This document shows, piece by piece, positions 12,261 to 30,106 of a DNA stretch of 34,973 nucleotides (position 1 is the stretch's first letter; every line of letters starts with the position of its first letter). Source of the DNA: Candidatus Thermoplasmatota archaeon (lineage in GTDB: Archaea > Thermoplasmatota > SW-10-69-26 > JACQPN01 > JAIVGT01); assembly GCA_035541015.1 (NCBI GenBank), contig DATLFM010000105.1, positions 1-34,973 of the forward strand, in the 5' to 3' direction. Under the pieces are notes generated by a model. The model was not told the origin of the DNA and did no database searches. It was given only the letters and a program-made list of their open reading frames with translations. A program made the translations under genes and the position numbers.

Positions 12261-12827
12261 CTACGCGCTCGCCTCGCCCCGCCCGTCCTGCGAGAGGGCG
12301 GGGGCGTGCGGCGCAAACGCACCGTACGCCGTGCCGACGCGAAGCGGCGGTTCGACGCGCACCACGGGGGCGGGCGCCGCAAACGCCGGCCGCCGCGCGC
12401 GGATCGAAAGGGCCTGGCGCACGAGGTCCGGCGAGAGGAGCTCGTACCGGCAGCCCGAGCGGTCCCGGCGCTTGCCGACGACCGAGAGCTGCACCATGCG
12501 CGAAAGGTGGAACCCAAGCGTGGAGTCCGCGCAGCCGAGCGAACGCCGAAGCTCCGTGCGCGTCATGGCTCGCACGAGAAGGAGCGTGGCGATCCGCCGC
12601 GGAACGCGGCGCGAGAAGAGCGCAAGCGACGGGCGCAGGCGCGGATCGTGGTCGCCCACGAGGAAGTAGCGCTTGTACCCGCCGTCGCCCACCTCGGCCA
12701 CGACGCCCCGGCGCGTCAGCCGGTCGACGTGGTGGCGAAGTTGCCCCACGCTCGAGAGATTGGCCGCGCGAGCCAGCGCCCGGAAGTGGATGCCCGGCTG
12801 CTCGCGGACGATGTCGTAGATGCGCAT
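12261..12827 (-). CDS. Tandem winged-helix transcription regulator
   Basis: The product is 188 residues from ATG 12827 (MRIYDIVREQPGIHFR). Upstream in-frame starts such as the TTG at 12923 would add a tail with no counterpart in the paralogue. The first winged helix is at about 1-65 (HFRALARAANLSSVGQLRHHVDRLTRRG, then a wing with GGYKRYFLVG). The second is at about 80-140 (RRVPRRIATLLL, TRTELRRSLGCADSTLGFHLSRM). The protein is nearly collinear with the one at 20287-21054, apart from the C-terminal tail. It is cytoplasmic and without a visible ligand domain. It lies between the glycan operon and the end of the pilus operon and could regulate either one. Confidence 0.85.
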   Translation of the reverse strand: MRIYDIVREQPGIHFRALARAANLSSVGQLRHHVDRLTRRGVVAEVGDGGYKRYFLVGDHDPRLRPSLALFSRRVPRRIATLLLVRAMTRTELRRSLGCADSTLGFHLSRMVQLSVVGKRRDRSGCRYELLSPDLVRQALSIRARRPAFAAPAPVVRVEPPLRVGTAYGAFAPHAPALSQDGRGEASA

Positions 12828-13139
12828 GCTCGTTCCCGCAAGTTCATGGTGATCCCGCAACGACGACCGCCCCCGGCGGGCCGACGGACCCGCGCAGACG
12901 AGCAATGGTCCATCCACGCGCAAGACCGTTCCGCTGGGATTGTCCTAGCGCGTTCGGTCGTTTGCCCATACGCGTCGAACGGTTGCGGGGTCGGCCCCGC
13001 GCGAACCCTTACCGCAGGCGCGCGGGGAGCAAGCGGGCGCGGGACTTCGTCTGCTCGGCCGCCCATCGCCGGCCCTGCGCCCCGCGTAGCAGAGTTACTG
13101 CGCAGATGCGCAGGAAAACGATCGCCGGGCGAACGGGTC
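12828..13139. other. Intergenic region upstream of the regulator
   Basis: No gene is seen. The region carries the palindromic element at 13094-13119. No strong TATA box was found for the regulator gene; CGTATGGG (minus strand, near 12965) is the only weak candidate. Confidence 0.4.
13094..13119. promoter_or_regulatory. Palindromic operator-like element, copy 1
   Basis: The core CTGCGCAGATGCGCAG (13098-13113) has 7-nt inverted arms, CTGCGCA and TGCGCAG, around a 2-nt centre. It is flanked by GTTA on the left and GAAAAC on the right. The identical arms and flanks recur at 28821-28846, with only the two central bases different. The site lies 21 nt beyond the last stop of the pilus operon and about 270 nt before the regulator start. 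Confidence 0.6.
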
Positions 13140-20286: not shown

Positions 20287-21054
20287 CTAGGCCGGTCCGG
20301 TCGCGGGTTTGGCGGAGGCGCCCGCCAGCGGTCGATCAACGGCGGCCGGGCCTTCGACGAGAGGATCGTCGGGTGCGGCCGGCAAGCCTTCCACGGGGCT
20401 CGGTTCGGGAGCTTGATCCACGGTTTCGTCGCGCGGAGCGTCGGAGCCGTTGCCGTTGCCGTTTCCATTGCCGTTGGCGTGCACGTGGAACTCCGAGTGG
20501 CCGTTGCCGCCGTTGGCGGCCGCGGCAAGATCGGGGACCGGCACCTCCTGCGCAAGCGGCACCGTGGGCTCCTTCACCCCGCCGCTTCGCATGAGCATGA
20601 CCTTGCGGACGGTCTCGGCGTCGGCGAGCGCGTACTTGGAGCCGTTGCGCTCGCGGAGCTTCACAACCACCTGCGCCTGCACCATGCGCGAGAGATGGAA
20701 GCCAAGCGTGGAGTCGGCGCAGCCCAGGGAGCGCCGGAGCTCCGTGCGGCTCATGGGCCGGACAAGGAGAAGCGTCCCGATGCGCCGCGGCACGCGCCGC
20801 GCGAAGAGCGCAAGCGCCGGCCGAAGGCCGGGCTCGTGGTTTCCGGCGAGGAAGAAGCGCTTGTAGCCTCCGTCCTCGAGCTCGACGAGAATCCCCCGCC
20901 GCACGAGGCGGTCGAGGTGGTGTCGCAGCTGGCCCACCGACGAGAGGTTGGCCGCGCGCGCAAGCCCCCGGAAATGGATGCCGGGCTGCTCCTGCACGAC
21001 GCGGCAGACGCGAAGGCTCACCTCGCTCCACGGGTGGTCGTCGTAGTGTCCCAT
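20287..21054 (-). CDS. Tandem winged-helix regulator with polar C-terminal tail
   Basis: The product is 255 residues from ATG 21054, overlapping the previous stop as TGATG. The first winged helix is at about 17-75 (VQEQPGIHFRGLARAANLSSVGQLRHHLDRL, GGYKRFFLAG). The second is at about 90-150 (RRVPRRIGTLLLVRPMSRTELRRSLGCADSTLGFHLSRM). Most of this matches the regulator at 12261. The last ~80 residues are low-complexity and polar, including NGNGNGNGNGSD and many Pro and Glu. It is cytoplasmic. Its place inside the pilus operon suggests that it controls that operon, but no target site is proven. Confidence 0.86.
   Translation of the reverse strand: MGHYDDHPWSEVSLRVCRVVQEQPGIHFRGLARAANLSSVGQLRHHLDRLVRRGILVELEDGGYKRFFLAGNHEPGLRPALALFARRVPRRIGTLLLVRPMSRTELRRSLGCADSTLGFHLSRMVQAQVVVKLRERNGSKYALADAETVRKVMLMRSGGVKEPTVPLAQEVPVPDLAAAANGGNGHSEFHVHANGNGNGNGNGSDAPRDETVDQAPEPSPVEGLPAAPDDPLVEGPAAVDRPLAGASAKPATGPA
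20445..20478 (-). repeat. Short tandem repeat coding for Asn-Gly pairs
   Basis: Six-base units, gccgtt with variants, are repeated about five times and encode NGNGNGNGNG in the tail of the regulator. Such a tract can vary in length by slippage. Confidence 0.6.
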
Positions 21055-23707: not shown

Positions 23708-24034
23708 GTGCGAACCTCTGGAGAAGACGACCGCTTGGTGTTGAAACCCGGAGGACCCCCGCGGCGCGGACCGGATCGCACGACCCGGCAACGGATGCTC
23801 GACGTCCGGCGGGAGCCGCATTTCAAGTACGATTTCAAGGAGGTCCTCGCGGAAAGCAAGCTTCCGCCCGAACAGATGAACTCCTTGTACGCGAGCACCC
23901 GCTCGAAGGGACAAAACCAGGACGTCGACGCCGCGAAGGCCTTCCTTCGGTCCAAGGTGGACGAGGGCGTCCTCACGCGCGACCTGTGCGACCGGCTCAC
24001 GTCGCTTCTCGACCGCTACTCGCGCTGGCGCTAG
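23708..24034 (+). CDS. Small conserved-looking protein of unknown function
   Basis: The product is 108 residues if the GTG at 23708 is used. The TATA-like element at 23688 would place the transcript start after that codon, so TTG 23735 or GTG 23738, preceded by GGAG, may be the true start (about 99 residues). The sequence is polar and basic early (PGGPPRRGPDRTTRQRM), then helical and mixed-charge: FKYDFKEVLAESKLPPEQMNSLYAST, DVDAAKAFLRSKVDEGVLTRDLCDRLTSLLDRYS. There is no signal peptide, membrane segment or Cys cluster. Its last 38 nt overlap the convergent large gene. I do not recognise a family. Confidence 0.6.
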   Translation: MRTSGEDDRLVLKPGGPPRRGPDRTTRQRMLDVRREPHFKYDFKEVLAESKLPPEQMNSLYASTRSKGQNQDVDAAKAFLRSKVDEGVLTRDLCDRLTSLLDRYSRWR

Positions 24035-27026
24035 GCTCGGCGTTTCCGGCGCGCGGCCCTCGCGCCCACGCGAGGGCGCGTCGAACGGGCCTTTTCCGCC
24101 AGGCCCACCACGCCATCCCCGCGATGCCTCCGTACACGAGGACACCCAAGACCGGGTGGATCTCGAAGAGGACCCACGGGTTGAGCGCGTAGACAAGGGA
24201 ACGCTCGCTGCCGTCGAGCGCAAGCTCGGCGCCGTTCCAACGCGCCGCCGGAGCGTGGCCGGGCGCGCCCTCGACGAGAAGGACGTTGCCCGCCGGCCCC
24301 GCCGGCTCGTGCGCGACGCGGGCCGACCCCGTCGAGCCGGCGACCGTTACAGCGGGAAAGCCGGCGCGCAGCCCAACGTCGCGGACGTCCCGAAGCTCCG
24401 CCACGATCGATTTCGACGGGAACCGAAGCCCAAGGCCCACGGGCACGCGCGCCTCCGACAGACGGAGGCTTGACGACATGGGCTCGTCGGCCGCCATGCG
24501 CAGTCCGCCGAGCGTCTCCAGCGAGAACGCGGAGGGAAGCCTCGCCTCGAAGGCGATGCGGGCGTCGGGACCCAAGGCCTCGTCGTCGAGGACCGAGAGC
24601 GCACCCTGCAAGGAGAGCCGCGCGCCCGGCGCGCTGCCGGCGTACCGCACGACGCCCGATCCCGCCTCCAGCGAGAATTCCGAAGGAAGATCCTCCGCCG
24701 CAAAGCGAAGCGACGGTCCGCCCGCGCGGTCCATCTCAACGGCGACGGAGGCAGGACCGTCGCCCGCGTGGCGCAGGCGCACCGCGCCGCCGCCGGCCGA
24801 GGCTTCCAGGACCGAACCGCCCGGAAGCGTCGCCTGCCCGCGCACGCGAAGCCCGTCTGCGTCGAGGGCAAGGTGGAAGGCGCCCTCGGGAAGCCCGGCA
24901 AGACGAAACGAGCTTGTCCCCTGCTCCTTGGCGAACCGGACCTCCTGCGGGAAACCTCGCACGTCCGCGTGCGCGGCCCAGACGGGCCCGCGCACGACGG
25001 CTCCCACGCCCTGCTTGGGGCGAGGCGGCATGAGGGGATTTTCAACGGCCAAAGGCCCCGCCGCAAGGTCGACGACGGCGTCCAGGGGACCCGGGAACGA
25101 CAGCGCAAGCGAATCCTCGCCATAGACGACGGAAGCGTCGCGAGGGAAGACCGCGATCCGGGCAGCCGCGTGCATCCGCCGATCGCGCGCGCGGTCCTCC
25201 GAGCGATACTCCACGGTGAGGTCGCTCGTGTCGGACGAACCGGCGTACGACGTCCGCGATTCGAGGCCGTTTCGCGTCGTCGCGCGGACGACCTCGATGG
25301 AGACGTCGTCGGGCAGGGCCGCGGCCCGGAACTCCGTGCGGCTGGCGACGTTCCGCGCCTTGGCGACGCTTGCCGCCGGCGCTTCCTCGAAGACCTCGCG
25401 GACGACCGACCGGACCGAGCGTGGGATGGCGTCCACGTTCACGGCCCATCCGGAACCAAACGCATCGCCAAAGCGCGACACGACGTACGCGATGCCCGCC
25501 GCGGGCAGCGCGTCGGCGAAGGCGGGCTTCACGCTTCCGCGCCAAATCGTGCCGGCGAGGCCCGGGCGGGACGAGGCCTCGTAGGAGAACGCGCTCTCCG
25601 CGTCGGAACCCCACGCGGCCAGGCGCAGGCGGGCGGGAAGGGCATCGAGCCGCAGGTCGGCCTCCGTGGGGATCGCTCCCGCGGAGGACAGGAGCACTCG
25701 AAGGGGCGCGCCGCCCGAAGCGTCCATCGCGAGCGACCAGCCGCCCTCTCCCTGCTCGTAGACGAGCGCGGAAAGCCCCGACAGCCGGCCCGCGAGGCTC
25801 CACTGCCCGGCGCTTGCAAGGTAGGCCACGTAGTCGCCCGCGACGTGCGCGTACTCGGGAACGTTGCCGAAGGCAAAGGTCGCGCTTGCGATCGGACCGT
25901 CGCCCCGGTAGGACACACCGTCCTCGCCGTAGGCGAAGGCCAGCCGCGCGGGAACGCCCCGAAGGTCAAACGCAAAGTAGCGCTCGCCGCCGCTTTCGAC
26001 GGCAAGGGCAACCAACGGGGAGGCGGCATCGAGCAGGAAGCTCGCGCGGCCCCGCGTGGCGATTGCGGCCTCCAGCCGCGCGGGCACGCCGGAGGCGGCG
26101 CCGGAGAGGAACCCGCCGGGAAACGTATGGGCAAACTCCACCGACGCAAGCGCGCGGTCGGCGCGAAGGGAGAGCAAGGAACCCTCGCCCCTTGGCGCAA
26201 GGGAAAGCGCCAGCGAAGGCGGCAAGTCCGCGCGCACGGCAAGCGTCCGCGCGGCGGAAGCCTCGCCCCAACGCGCGCCCAACGAAGCGAGGGTGGACTC
26301 GGAAGCTTCCCATGCCACGCGCGCGTGGTCGACGCTTGCCGACAGGCGCGCCGGCGGCGGGGAGAGCGACAGCGCGAGGCTTGCGGCGTCGCGCCCGCCG
26401 GCCTCGCCCAGGATCGTGAGCTCGGCCGGAGCGCCGCCGATCTCCGCCGACAGCTCGTAGCCGGTGGCCGCGGCGGCGCGCCGAAGCGAGAGCACGAAGG
26501 AGTCGGGCGCCTCGGCCGCGCGGTAGCCGACGGCCACGCGCGCCTGCACGCCGTGCAAGACCGTCTCCTTGATGAGCAGCACTTCCAGCGGACCCGTGGA
26601 CGCAAAGCCCACCTTCGCGATCGAGACGCGCGCCGCAAGCGGCACGACGCCGACGTCGGGGACGGCAAGCGCGGTGATTGCAAGATCGGGAAGGTTCCCC
26701 GCAAGCCCGCCTGCGGGGCGCGAGCCGGGGACGTCCACGAGTGCCGGCACGCCCACGAGCGCCGCCGTCCGGAAGGTTTGGGTGCCTGCGCGGATCTGGA
26801 TCCAGTAGCCCGCTCCGCCCGACCAGCCGACGGAGGAAGGTCGGCCAAGCGCAGCCGGCGCGGGCGCCTCCACGTCGCGCGGCTGGACGATCCGGTGGTC
26901 GACCGGATCGGGGGCTGCGACGGCAGGCGGCGGCGCGAGGGAATCGACGGGGCCAGGGGAGGAGGCCCCGGGGAAGGGCACGGCCAGGATGGCCAGGACC
27001 ACGGCTGCCGCCCGCACCGCCCGCAT
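23997..27026 (-). CDS. Very large secreted, membrane-anchored repeat protein
   Basis: The product is 1009 residues. ATG 27026 is chosen over TTG 27047 because it starts the signal peptide (MRAVRAAAVVLAILAVPFPGASS) and lies 27 nt from a TATA-like element. The body is one long beta-rich chain of repeated units opening with an LP- or VP-type turn: DLPPSLALSLA, GVPARLEAAIA, GVPARLAFAYG, ALPARLRLAAWG, GLPEGAFHLALD and DLPSEFSLEAG, each followed by a short Gly/Tyr-containing hairpin. The C-terminus is a single membrane helix (VLGVLVYGGIAGMAWWAW) with an Arg-rich tail inside. No Cys-based or catalytic motif was found. The topology suggests a rod-like exported structure or a lipid- or glycan-contacting surface protein. 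The function is unknown. Confidence 0.82.
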   Translation of the reverse strand: MRAVRAAAVVLAILAVPFPGASSPGPVDSLAPPPAVAAPDPVDHRIVQPRDVEAPAPAALGRPSSVGWSGGAGYWIQIRAGTQTFRTAALVGVPALVDVPGSRPAGGLAGNLPDLAITALAVPDVGVVPLAARVSIAKVGFASTGPLEVLLIKETVLHGVQARVAVGYRAAEAPDSFVLSLRRAAAATGYELSAEIGGAPAELTILGEAGGRDAASLALSLSPPPARLSASVDHARVAWEASESTLASLGARWGEASAARTLAVRADLPPSLALSLAPRGEGSLLSLRADRALASVEFAHTFPGGFLSGAASGVPARLEAAIATRGRASFLLDAASPLVALAVESGGERYFAFDLRGVPARLAFAYGEDGVSYRGDGPIASATFAFGNVPEYAHVAGDYVAYLASAGQWSLAGRLSGLSALVYEQGEGGWSLAMDASGGAPLRVLLSSAGAIPTEADLRLDALPARLRLAAWGSDAESAFSYEASSRPGLAGTIWRGSVKPAFADALPAAGIAYVVSRFGDAFGSGWAVNVDAIPRSVRSVVREVFEEAPAASVAKARNVASRTEFRAAALPDDVSIEVVRATTRNGLESRTSYAGSSDTSDLTVEYRSEDRARDRRMHAAARIAVFPRDASVVYGEDSLALSFPGPLDAVVDLAAGPLAVENPLMPPRPKQGVGAVVRGPVWAAHADVRGFPQEVRFAKEQGTSSFRLAGLPEGAFHLALDADGLRVRGQATLPGGSVLEASAGGGAVRLRHAGDGPASVAVEMDRAGGPSLRFAAEDLPSEFSLEAGSGVVRYAGSAPGARLSLQGALSVLDDEALGPDARIAFEARLPSAFSLETLGGLRMAADEPMSSSLRLSEARVPVGLGLRFPSKSIVAELRDVRDVGLRAGFPAVTVAGSTGSARVAHEPAGPAGNVLLVEGAPGHAPAARWNGAELALDGSERSLVYALNPWVLFEIHPVLGVLVYGGIAGMAWWAWRKRPVRRALAWARGPRAGNAEPSASASSGREAT

Positions 27027-27190: not shown

Positions 27191-28171
27191 ATGGCCGGAA
27201 CGGCTACCTCCCCCACCGCCTCGCGCTTCCTCCGGCTTGCAAACGAGATGCCCGGCGCCTCCCTGTCCGCGCTCGCGCGCGCCCTTGGAGTGGACCCCTC
27301 CACGGCCGCCTACCACGCGCGCCGCCTCTGCCACGAGGGCCACGTCGTCCTCGTGCGGGGCGGCCGCGAGCTGTGCGCGTTCCCAGCCAACGCGGGCTAC
27401 TGCCCATGGCAGCGCCGGGCGCTCCCGCTCCTGCGCGCCGCCTCCGCCCGACGACTGGCCGCCGAGATCGTTCACGAGCCCGCGACGCTTCCCGAAGTCG
27501 CTCTGCGCGCGCGGGTCTCCATCGCCGCCGCGCGGTGGGCATTGCGTCAACTGCGGCGCCTCGACGCGATCGAGGCGTGCCACGGACAATGGCGCGTCGT
27601 TCCCTCGCGCCGCGCCTGCCTTGCGCGCGCGCTTGCCGGACTTCCCTGCGGGCGCTGCGACGAGGCGCTAGCCGCACCCGTCGGCGCCGCGGGAATCCGC
27701 AAGCGCCCGGAGCCGCTTTTCGATCCGCGCGGCGTGGGTCCCTCTCCAATAGACCTTCCCGCACGCCTGGCAGCGCCAGAATTCCGCGACCCGCCGCAGG
27801 ACGGCTTCGGGAACCGCGTCTTGGACCGCGGGAGCGTCGACCTTGTGGAGGACCCCGTTGCACGTCGTGCAGCGGGACAGGAAGCGATCCTCCCGAACCC
27901 CGAGCGCAAGACCCGCCACGACCTCGGCCAACTGCTCGCCCGGATCCAGCGACCGCACGAGGAAGCCACGGCCGCCGGCCCGGCGCGCAAGCGCCGCGTC
28001 CCGCGTCAGCAGCACGCGGTCCTCCGCCGCGGCCTGCGCGAGCAGCGCCTCGTCGGCGCGGTCCTTGGCGTAGGCGGCGTCCTCGCCCAAAAGCCGCAGC
28101 CACCGCGACAAGGCGCCGAGCATCTCGTCGCACAGGAACCGCACGCTCTCACCGCAGCACGCGATGCTTGA
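27191..28171 (+). CDS. Tandem winged-helix regulator; 3' end doubtful
   Basis: ATG 27191. Two HTH units are clear in the first 160 residues: ASRFLRLANEMPGASLSALARALGVDPSTAAYHARRLCHEGHVVLV and ATLPEVALRARVSIAAARWALRQLRRLDAIEA. The frame then runs on to 28171 (326 residues), but everything after about 27668 is antisense to the well-supported Mut7-C RNase gene and has shadow-like composition. In the next frame a TAG at 27669-27671 would end the protein right at the stop of that gene. A lost stop or single-base frameshift in this sequence is therefore likely, with a true product of about 160 residues. It is cytoplasmic with no visible sensor domain. Confidence 0.6.
   Translation: MAGTATSPTASRFLRLANEMPGASLSALARALGVDPSTAAYHARRLCHEGHVVLVRGGRELCAFPANAGYCPWQRRALPLLRAASARRLAAEIVHEPATLPEVALRARVSIAAARWALRQLRRLDAIEACHGQWRVVPSRRACLARALAGLPCGRCDEALAAPVGAAGIRKRPEPLFDPRGVGPSPIDLPARLAAPEFRDPPQDGFGNRVLDRGSVDLVEDPVARRAAGQEAILPNPERKTRHDLGQLLARIQRPHEEATAAGPARKRRVPRQQHAVLRRGLREQRLVGAVLGVGGVLAQKPQPPRQGAEHLVAQEPHALTAARDA
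27668..28144 (-). CDS. Mut7-C family RNase with zinc ribbon
   Basis: The product is 158 residues from GTG 28144, 4 nt after the reductase stop. VRFLCDEMLGALSRWLRLLGEDAAYA, EDRVLLTRDAALARRAG and DPGEQLAEVVAGL form the PIN-like domain, with acidic residues at DE, D (of KDRAD) and TRD. FLSRCTTCNGVL and FWRCQACGKVYWRGTHAARIEKRL form the C-terminal zinc ribbon (two CxxC pairs) and the family signature YWxGTH. The family is predicted to have RNase activity. Length is normal. It is co-transcribed with the riboflavin-pathway reductase. Confidence 0.9.
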   Translation of the reverse strand: MRFLCDEMLGALSRWLRLLGEDAAYAKDRADEALLAQAAAEDRVLLTRDAALARRAGGRGFLVRSLDPGEQLAEVVAGLALGVREDRFLSRCTTCNGVLHKVDAPAVQDAVPEAVLRRVAEFWRCQACGKVYWRGTHAARIEKRLRALADSRGADGCG

Positions 28172-28778
28172 GCAGGATGCCCTCGCCCAGGCGGATCGTC
28201 TCGTGAAGCTCGAGGCGCACCACGTCCTCCGGCGAAAGCGCCCCCTCGCCGTCCGCGGGCGTCGGCGCGCCCCCGCCCACGACGGTGGGCGCGACGTACA
28301 CGAGGAACTCGTCCGCCAGCCGCTGCCGCAGGAAGGAGGCGAGCACGCGGCCGCCGCCCTCCACGAGAAGCCACCCGACGCCGCGGGCCGCAAGCTCCGC
28401 GAGCACGAGGGGAAGCTCCACGCGCTCGCTTCCCGCCTCCACGACCTCGGCGCCGGCCAGCGGCCGCGCGCGCCCCTTGGCGCAAAAGACAAGCGTCTTG
28501 GCCGGTCCGCGCAGGACGCGAGCGGATGGCGGCGTGCGAAGGTTCGAGTCGAGGACGACGCGCAGCGGGTGATGCGGGCGCGGCACGAGCTCCTCGTCGA
28601 CGAGAAGCTCGGGATCGTCGCGCAGCACGGTCCCGGCGCCCACGAGGATCGCGTCCACGCGCGCGCGAAGCTCGTGCACGCGCTTCTTGTCCTGCGGCGA
28701 GGAGAGGCGAAGCCGGGCGCCGCCCGACAGGGCGATCTTGCCGTCGGCGCTCATGGCGCAGTTGAGCGTGACGCGCAT
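28149..28778 (-). CDS. 2,5-diamino-6-ribosylamino-pyrimidinone 5'-phosphate reductase (RibD C-terminal family)
   Basis: The product is 209 residues from ATG 28778. RVTLNCAMSADGKIAL, SSPQDKKRVHELRARVDAILVGAGTVLRDDPEL, HPLRVVLDSNLRTPP, GWLLVEGGGRVLASFL and VYVAPTVVGGG are the conserved blocks of the dihydrofolate-reductase-like RibD reductase family. Archaeal single-domain members reduce the ribosyl side chain in riboflavin and F420 precursor synthesis using NAD(P)H. It is probably leaderless: a TATA-like CTTTTGG on the minus strand lies about 27 nt upstream. A palindromic element (28821-28846) lies just upstream of that promoter. Confidence 0.9.
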   Translation of the reverse strand: MRVTLNCAMSADGKIALSGGARLRLSSPQDKKRVHELRARVDAILVGAGTVLRDDPELLVDEELVPRPHHPLRVVLDSNLRTPPSARVLRGPAKTLVFCAKGRARPLAGAEVVEAGSERVELPLVLAELAARGVGWLLVEGGGRVLASFLRQRLADEFLVYVAPTVVGGGAPTPADGEGALSPEDVVRLELHETIRLGEGILLKHRVLR

Positions 28779-28820: not shown

Positions 28821-28846
28821 GTTACTGCGCAATTGCGCAGGAAAAC
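28821..28846. promoter_or_regulatory. Palindromic operator-like element, copy 2
   Basis: The core CTGCGCAATTGCGCAG (28825-28840) is a perfect 16-bp palindrome flanked by GTTA and GAAAAC. It equals the element at 13094-13119 except for the two central bases. It lies between the divergent promoters of the reductase and the membrane-anchored regulator, adjoining the reductase TATA element. Confidence 0.65.
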
Positions 28847-28851
28847 CGGCC

Positions 28852-28868
28852 GTGCAAATTTCTTGCAC
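28852..28868. promoter_or_regulatory. Second palindrome in the divergent promoter
   Basis: GTGCAA (28852-28857) and TTGCAC (28863-28868) are perfect inverted arms around ATTTC. It lies 6 nt from the larger palindrome and about 25 nt before the CTTATG element of the + gene. Confidence 0.45.
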
Positions 28869-28892: not shown

Positions 28893-28898
28893 CTTATG
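28893..28898 (+). promoter_or_regulatory. TATA-like element CTTATG of the membrane-anchored regulator
   Basis: AAAAGGCTTATGGC predicts transcription from about 28920. This excludes the ATG at 28901 and favours the GTG at 28931, which has GGGGAG 4 nt upstream. Confidence 0.5.
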
Positions 28899-28930
28899 GC
28901 ATGCCAAGACGACGGCGCACGGGGAGAACC

Positions 28931-30079
28931 GTGTCGACCGGGGCTACCATCGCGGCGACGCTTGCCCTCGTGGCGTTCCTGTGCCTTGCGTCTGCCGGAA
29001 GCGCGAAGCTTCCCGACCCGCCCACCAAGACCCCCGACGACGTACGCCAGCATGCCGCCGACGCCCAGGGGTACCTTCGCGATCGCGCCGAGGACCTGGA
29101 GCCGTGGGAGCGCGTGGGCCACGCGCGCGACGCCGCCGAGGAGGCGATCCCGGCCGCGCCGCAGCCGGACGAAGCGACGCTTCCGCTCGACGAGCTCCGA
29201 AGCGAGGCGAGCGCGGCGCTTGCCGTCTTGGACCAGGAGGTCCCCGCCTTCGAGCCCGACGTCTCCCGTGAAGACGTCTGCAGCACGGAAGCGCTGCTGG
29301 TCGATCCGCTTCGCGGGCTCACCCATGCGCCCCCACCGGCGCTCGCCTGCGGAGCGGGCGAGGAGACGGCGACGTCCCGTCTGACCGACGACGACCGCGC
29401 CGACACGGCTCGCCTTCGCGAGCATATACTCCGTGCGGCGGGCGAGCAGGCCGCGCGCGCGATCGAGCGCGCGGCCGCGGACGACGCAGCGCCGCCCGCC
29501 GCGCGGGCGCCTGCGCGCTCCGTCCACGCAGCCGACGCGCTGCGCGCGGAGACCGCGCCTGGCGCCTCGTTGCCGCTGTGGCTTGCGGTGGGCCTCGCCC
29601 TTGCGCTTGCTCCCCTTGCCCGTCTCTACCGGCGCCTCACGCGCGACGACACACTTGCGAACCCGACGCGCCGCGCGGTGCTCGACCACGTAGCCGCTCG
29701 GCCCGGCGCCACCGCGCACGAGGTCGCGCGCGCATGCTCGATCAACTACCGCACGGCCGCCCACCACCTCGGCGTCCTTCACGAGTTCGGAGCGCTGGAG
29801 GCACGCGAGGTGGGCGCGCGGCTGCGGTACTTCGGCAACGGACGCCTCTCGGACGCTGGCAAGCGCGCGGCGCTTGCGCTGCGGCACCCGCAGGCGGCCC
29901 GCGTGGTCCGCGCGCTTGCGCGCGATCCGCGGGGCTCGCTGTCGGCGCTCGCCGCTCGCGCGGGGCTTCCCAAGAGCACGGCCAAGTGGCACGTGGACCG
30001 CCTCCGGCGCTTGGGCCTTGTTCTGCCCGACGGGCGGCCCGCCGCCGAGGCGATCGACGGGGCCCTCACGGGGCCTTGA
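28931..30079 (+). CDS. Membrane-anchored tandem winged-helix regulator
   Basis: The product is 382 residues from GTG 28931 (RBS GGGGAG). The ATG at 28901 would add MPRRRRTGRT but lies too close to the TATA-like element. A signal peptide or first helix (ATIAATLALVAFLCLASAGSA) leads to a ~180-residue outside domain, acidic and helical with two Cys (DVCSTEALL, ALACGAG). A membrane helix at about 212-236 (LPLWLAVGLALALAPLARL) is followed by two cytoplasmic winged helices: NPTRRAVLDHVAARPGATAHEVARACSINYRTAAHHLGVL and SLSALAARAGLPKSTAKWHVDRLRRLG. The layout is that of a one-component sensor that carries an outside signal directly to DNA. Its target is unknown; the adjacent palindromes are candidates. 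Confidence 0.82.
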   Translation: MSTGATIAATLALVAFLCLASAGSAKLPDPPTKTPDDVRQHAADAQGYLRDRAEDLEPWERVGHARDAAEEAIPAAPQPDEATLPLDELRSEASAALAVLDQEVPAFEPDVSREDVCSTEALLVDPLRGLTHAPPPALACGAGEETATSRLTDDDRADTARLREHILRAAGEQAARAIERAAADDAAPPAARAPARSVHAADALRAETAPGASLPLWLAVGLALALAPLARLYRRLTRDDTLANPTRRAVLDHVAARPGATAHEVARACSINYRTAAHHLGVLHEFGALEAREVGARLRYFGNGRLSDAGKRAALALRHPQAARVVRALARDPRGSLSALAARAGLPKSTAKWHVDRLRRLGLVLPDGRPAAEAIDGALTGP

Positions 30080-30098: not shown

Positions 30099-30106
30099 CT
30101 TTATGG
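30099..30106 (+). promoter_or_regulatory. TATA-like element of the transketolase genes
   Basis: CTTTATGG is centred about 28 nt before the ATG at 30131, giving a leaderless or almost leaderless transcript. Confidence 0.55.

Follow-up and report, generated by a model that had tools for sequence, protein, structure and literature searches.

The window, a 34,973-nucleotide stretch of contig DATLFM010000105.1 from a Candidatus Thermoplasmatota archaeon (assembly GCA_035541015.1), carries an open frame that runs on the forward strand from GTG 28931 to the stop at 30079 and encodes a putative regulator of 382 residues, beginning MSTGATIAATLALVAFLCLASAGSA. Two palindromes lie between this frame and a divergent gene of the riboflavin pathway (Table 1). 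There is uncertainty over the start codon. GTG 28931 stands at a plausible distance downstream of a TATA-like element, and the same-frame ATG at 28901, only a few bases downstream of that element, would add MPRRRRTGRT, a basic n-region. Hydropathy peaks at residues 5-23 (Kyte-Doolittle mean 2.06) and again at residues 212-230 (mean 1.91), and the roughly 186 residues between the N-terminal segment and the transmembrane helix contain two cysteines. We take the G-S-A before Lys26 to fit a signal peptidase site; cleavage there would leave the proposed topology unchanged. By the positive-inside rule, the basic RLYRRL that follows the transmembrane helix presumably fits a cytoplasmic C-terminal half.

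Table 1. Features of the regulator gene and its upstream region, in window coordinates.
Feature	Position	Strand	Detail or basis
CDS, transmembrane regulator with tandem winged helices	28931..30079	+	382 aa; GTG start; ATG 28901 possible
N-terminal hydrophobic segment, probable signal peptide	28931..29005	+	residues 1-25, AGSA before K26
Outside domain (residues 26-211) without known family	29006..29563	+	Pfam, PDB, six other class genomes
Cys117, outside	29279..29281	+	sequence; cysteine parity tests
Cys140, outside	29348..29350	+	sequence; cysteine parity tests
Transmembrane helix, about residues 212-233, then basic RLYRRL	29564..29629	+	hydropathy, family conservation, AlphaFold2
Winged helix 1 (residues 242-302), ArsR/SmtB-like, beta wing	29654..29836	+	Pfam, sequence matches, AlphaFold2, CzrA 1r1u
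Winged helix 2 (residues 308-367), IclR/MarR/Lrp-like	29852..30031	+	Pfam, sequence matches, AlphaFold2
TATA-like CTTATGG upstream of regulator	28893..28899	+	compare CTTTATGG at 30099 before transketolase gene
Palindrome 1, TTACTGCGCAATTGCGCAGGAA, copy of a dispersed 51-copy motif	28822..28843		22 bp; inner 16 bp perfect
Palindrome 2, GTGCAA-N5-TTGCAC, candidate operator	28852..28868		6-bp arms, 5-bp gap; single genome copy
Divergent gene for an archaeal reductase of the riboflavin pathway (RibD C-terminal domain)	28149..28778	-	TIGR01508 over cut-off

The C-terminal half matched the Pfam models HTH_20 (residues 242-289, E 2e-17) and HTH_IclR/HTH_24 (residues 322-367, E 2.5e-11 and 2.3e-10) over their cut-offs, and the sequence matches of both winged helices were DNA-binding factors of the ArsR/SmtB and Lrp/MarR groups. 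In an AlphaFold2 model built from a 19-row alignment (mean pLDDT 76.1; a poor single-sequence model, pLDDT 52.5, was set aside), a transmembrane helix at residues 216-241 continued into the first winged helix (245-302, with a beta wing), which was followed by a second (308-360) whose wing was almost absent, and 10-residue pLDDT means ranged from 89 to 98 across residues 241-370. Because it has almost no wing in this model, the second winged helix may not contact DNA. The best structural match was CzrA (1r1u; Z 11.1, rmsd 1.6, 78 aligned residues, model range 228-306), and this alignment starts inside the transmembrane helix, so the first helix of the ArsR-type fold would be the inner end of the membrane helix. 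Other structural matches included winged helices of a Pol III subunit and of ESCRT-II; the match lists were dominated by the first winged helix and have no bearing on the fold of the outside part. The hydropathy, Pfam and modelling results bear out the single membrane helix and the two cytoplasmic winged helices that the earlier note had proposed from sequence. Its outside helical domain with two cysteines is borne out as well: Cys117 and Cys140 are present and the outside part is predicted to be helical, but residues 105-149, which include both cysteines, have pLDDT values below 50.

The regulator belongs to a large family. A search of its own genome (2.21 Mb in 114 contigs, 96% complete) returned 52 matches with E values of 0.01 or lower, spread over 51 places. 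In 43 of these places a transmembrane segment (hydrophobic segments being called at a Kyte-Doolittle mean of at least 1.4) directly precedes the winged-helix pair, 38 of the 51 have both this segment and an N-terminal hydrophobic segment near a start codon, and a basic LYxRL directly after the transmembrane segment is conserved. The genome thus encodes about 40 such receptors, each with its own outside part, and both their number and their diversity are unusual. With the same query, six other genomes of the class gave 9-36 matches each at E 1e-5 and the rest of the phylum sample 0-12 matches per genome, with 31 of 41 genomes matched. A separate search across the whole phylum scored about 17 candidates in most large genomes, and its counts are left out of this census. 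Stretches around the matches in two of the class relatives (G001 and G003) contained 44 winged-helix frames, 36 with a transmembrane segment and 29 with both segments. By comparison, domain searches of the 2.2-Mb home genome found 14 response-regulator matches and 11 HATPase matches, the latter possibly including non-kinase ATPases. Elsewhere in the window, two soluble proteins (12261-12827 and 20287-21054) closely resemble each other in their N-terminal halves (EQPGIHFR-LARAANLSSVGQLRHH onwards) and each look like a winged-helix pair. The start of a forward-strand frame at 27191-27580 also reads like a winged-helix pair without a transmembrane segment; the frame continues across a Mut7-C-like gene of the opposite strand.

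The outside domains share little sequence. That of the regulator had no match in Pfam, no sequence match in the PDB and, with a best E value of 0.024, no convincing match or orthologue in the other six class genomes. An all-against-all BLAST of the 38 outside domains (703 pairs) gave one weak pair (p20/p22, 4e-4), no probability exceeded 4.3% when the regulator's outside domain was compared with the 37 others by hhalign, and none of the 21 (of 38) scanned against Pfam had a match with an E value of 0.01 or lower. Among the closest paralogues, the six whose outside part can be read (the regulator included) have 72-80 residues between the last outside cysteine and the transmembrane segment; this similar spacing is a hint of a common but fast-changing outside module, which sequence methods do not confirm.

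Cysteine counts provide independent information about these domains. The number of outside cysteines is even in 37 of 38 paralogues, and in 25 of the 26 with at least one outside cysteine. When the 97 outside cysteines were redistributed by length in 20,000 trials, an average of 18.4 outside domains had odd numbers, and never fewer than seven. By contrast, cytoplasmic halves with cysteines in the same proteins had even numbers in only 10 of 30 cases. The result was replicated in G001 and G003, where outside cysteines were even in all 29 proteins (8/8 among those with any), an outcome reached in none of 20,000 trials; 4 of 20 cysteine-containing cytoplasmic halves were even. A further check in 400-kb stretches and single loci yielded seven proteins, none with outside cysteines. 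The simplest reading of this parity suggests that the outside domains do lie outside and that their cysteines are paired in disulfides; given the parity across the family, Cys117 and Cys140 probably form one disulfide. Together with the basic RLYRRL after the membrane helix, parity upholds the outside-to-DNA one-component architecture of the earlier note. Cysteine parity is also a cheap and reusable way to assign the membrane side of an unknown domain.

Both palindromes that the earlier note had placed beside the gene exist, but palindrome 1 is no private site. Its motif, TTMCTGCGCANNTGCGCAGKAA, occurs 51 times in the 2.2-Mb genome (control pattern, 0), which led us to reject it as the regulator's own operator, and it is absent from six class relatives (G001-G006); the 22-bp palindrome is genus-specific. 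A second copy in the window lies at 13095-13116, and further copies are found at L077-L124. Comparison of 50 copies gave TT[AC]C-TGCGCA-NN-TGCGCA-G[GT]AA, in which, beyond the searched core, six letters are invariant and two take either of two letters. Intergenic positions account for 47 of the 50 copies, compared with 13% of the surrounding stretches; 23 of 42 flanking 3' ends lie within 0-6 bp of a copy, and 45 of 48 flanking 5' ends lie at least 38 bp away. The free centre and invariant flanks speak for a putative site that is strictly read by a protein rather than a decaying copied repeat, and it could be a terminator-like roadblock, a chromosome-organising site or another strictly recognised site. 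An RNA hairpin finds no support: the one variable stem pair is complementary in 33 of 50 copies, near the 28 that a hand calculation gives without covariation. A DNA-uptake-like half-site was rejected, as half-sites occur almost exclusively in pairs, with about 102 of 115 half-site matches falling within palindromes (control, 17). Two viral contigs have one copy each; the two look like a single phage type with 54-55% GC and were taken as unrelated.

Palindrome 2 is a candidate operator of the regulator. In Markov shuffles of the intergenic gap, a perfect 16-bp palindrome arose in 2.4% of cases and at least two 6-bp inverted repeats in 22%; taken by itself, palindrome 2 could therefore have arisen by chance. 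Two other repeated palindromes were observed. In one relative (G004; L162-L179) a hairpin palindrome, TCAGGGGG-loop-CCCCCTGA, is present in 78 copies; quite unlike palindrome 1, it frequently forms inverted pairs spaced by about 50 bp, in the manner of bacterial REP/BIME elements, and is similar to the CGTC-tagged REPs of PMC3733652. A further palindrome, TGCGATGATCATTCATCGCA, occurs at two places in the home genome (L015:2889, a place also covered by L076, and L073:1036).

The earlier note had also suggested that the flavin-pathway reductase may be part of the regulator's response, but comparison with relatives does not support this link. The ribD gene was found in six of seven class genomes, and none of the four relatives in which its surroundings can be read (G002, G003, G004 and G005) has a transmembrane winged-helix gene beside it; there it is flanked by a subtilase-like gene or by other genes, the gene upstream in G005 encoding a secreted protein without a winged helix. 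The G001 match, which covers 60 residues at the end of a contig, was left out. The adjacency in the window may be accidental. A gene that we call Mut7-C-like from the look of its sequence follows ribD in G002, G003 and G005, as in the window, where the copy has no Pfam match. The reverse strand at 23997-27017 encodes a secreted protein of about 1000 residues with a C-terminal membrane anchor and no Pfam match.

On the computed domain order, winged-helix folds, topology evidence and family size, the regulator is probably a one-component receptor of the transmembrane transcription regulator (TTR) type, with an outside domain, a single transmembrane helix and a cytoplasmic tandem of winged helices. 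We infer its dimerisation, signal, DNA binding and targets. The N-terminal signal would take a small helical domain, probably closed by a disulfide, outside the cell; one transmembrane helix would anchor the protein and continue as the first helix of the cytoplasmic ArsR/SmtB-like winged helix, with the second winged helix following in the cytoplasm. An outside event, such as the binding of a ligand or a change in the envelope or in redox state, would most likely alter dimer geometry through the transmembrane helix, and the membrane-anchored dimer would then bind or leave DNA near promoters.

The same topology would also serve regulated proteolysis, in which cleavage in or near the membrane, under the control of the outside domain, releases the tandem of winged helices to act in the cytoplasm; a helix continuous from the membrane into the first winged helix is compatible with such cleavage. 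We regard this alternative as unlikely, as no protease gene turned up next to the regulator in the window, and the conserved LYxRL after the membrane segment and a transmembrane helix that supplies the first ArsR-like helix fit a tethered form better. Less probable again is that the winged-helix pair is a protein-contact module, for example for the transcription machinery, and that the protein is no classical regulator. The nearly wingless second domain and the structural matches to Pol III and ESCRT-II winged helices are in keeping with this reading, but by sequence both domains match DNA-binding factors.

It is very doubtful that the regulator or a close paralogue is a global factor that binds palindrome 1 and its 50 other copies. 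Palindrome 1 adjoins the regulator gene, and eight copies lie in 46 stretches around other paralogues compared with about five expected from the genome average (221,686 bp, some stretches overlapping), which is no clear excess. Moreover, the copies prefer gene ends and mostly keep their distance from gene starts, and the relatives that lack the motif nevertheless have the regulator family.

The interest of this locus stems from the repertoire and not from the single gene. We tentatively propose that the lineage's receptors combine one conserved module, a transmembrane segment, LYxRL and tandem winged helices, with dozens of unrelated or very fast-changing, disulfide-paired outside domains, and that this repertoire, outnumbering two-component systems, may be the chief means by which the lineage senses its surroundings. 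Some 40 regulators with a shared DNA-binding module and differing outside parts form a natural set for studying how membrane-held proteins find their operators and how new sensors are acquired. Our literature searches, with coverage light on subscription journals, found no paper naming COG3398, no dedicated study of one-component regulators of Thermoplasmata among the matches listed, and no paper joining Thermoplasmatota, winged-helix transcriptional regulators, membrane and expansion.

Regulators of the ToxR/CadC type have a single transmembrane segment, an outside sensor and a cytoplasmic, N-terminal OmpR-like winged helix. Our regulator shares the single membrane segment, the outside sensor and a cytoplasmic location of the winged-helix part, but it has no OmpR-type domain in Pfam, and its two winged helices, of ArsR and IclR/Lrp type, are both C-terminal. 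The first of these has the ArsR-type fold of the repressors CzrA and SmtB; unlike them, the regulator is membrane-anchored, has a second winged helix and scores below the cut-off of the metalloregulator model (NF033788, 47.9 bits against 55). Archaeal membrane-bound one-component regulators with helix-turn-helix domains are represented by ArnR and ArnR1 of Sulfolobus, described as having an N-terminal HTH, a putative HAMP and sensor region and two C-terminal transmembrane segments (PMC6396743). The order is reversed here, a long outside domain and one transmembrane helix preceding two C-terminal winged helices, so the regulator is not of the ArnR type. Membrane-tethered regulators have been reported as few per archaeal genome: TTRs average 4 (±2), according to a study whose main text has no word beginning with Thermoplasm (Demey et al., 2023; PMC10269533). 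The 43 places found here are about tenfold above that mean, a rough comparison as the methods differ. The same study reports lineage-specific expansion, with 158 TTRs in one bacterial genome, and no recognisable further domain in about 57% of TTRs. Like TTRs as described there, the regulator joins a predicted DNA-binding domain (HTH_20, HTH_IclR/HTH_24, AlphaFold2 model) and at least one predicted transmembrane region (hydropathy, helix 216-241, 43 of 51 paralogous places) in one protein. On these predicted features, it qualifies as a TTR under the definition given in that study, a kind already known, with an unusual domain order and a tandem of winged helices.
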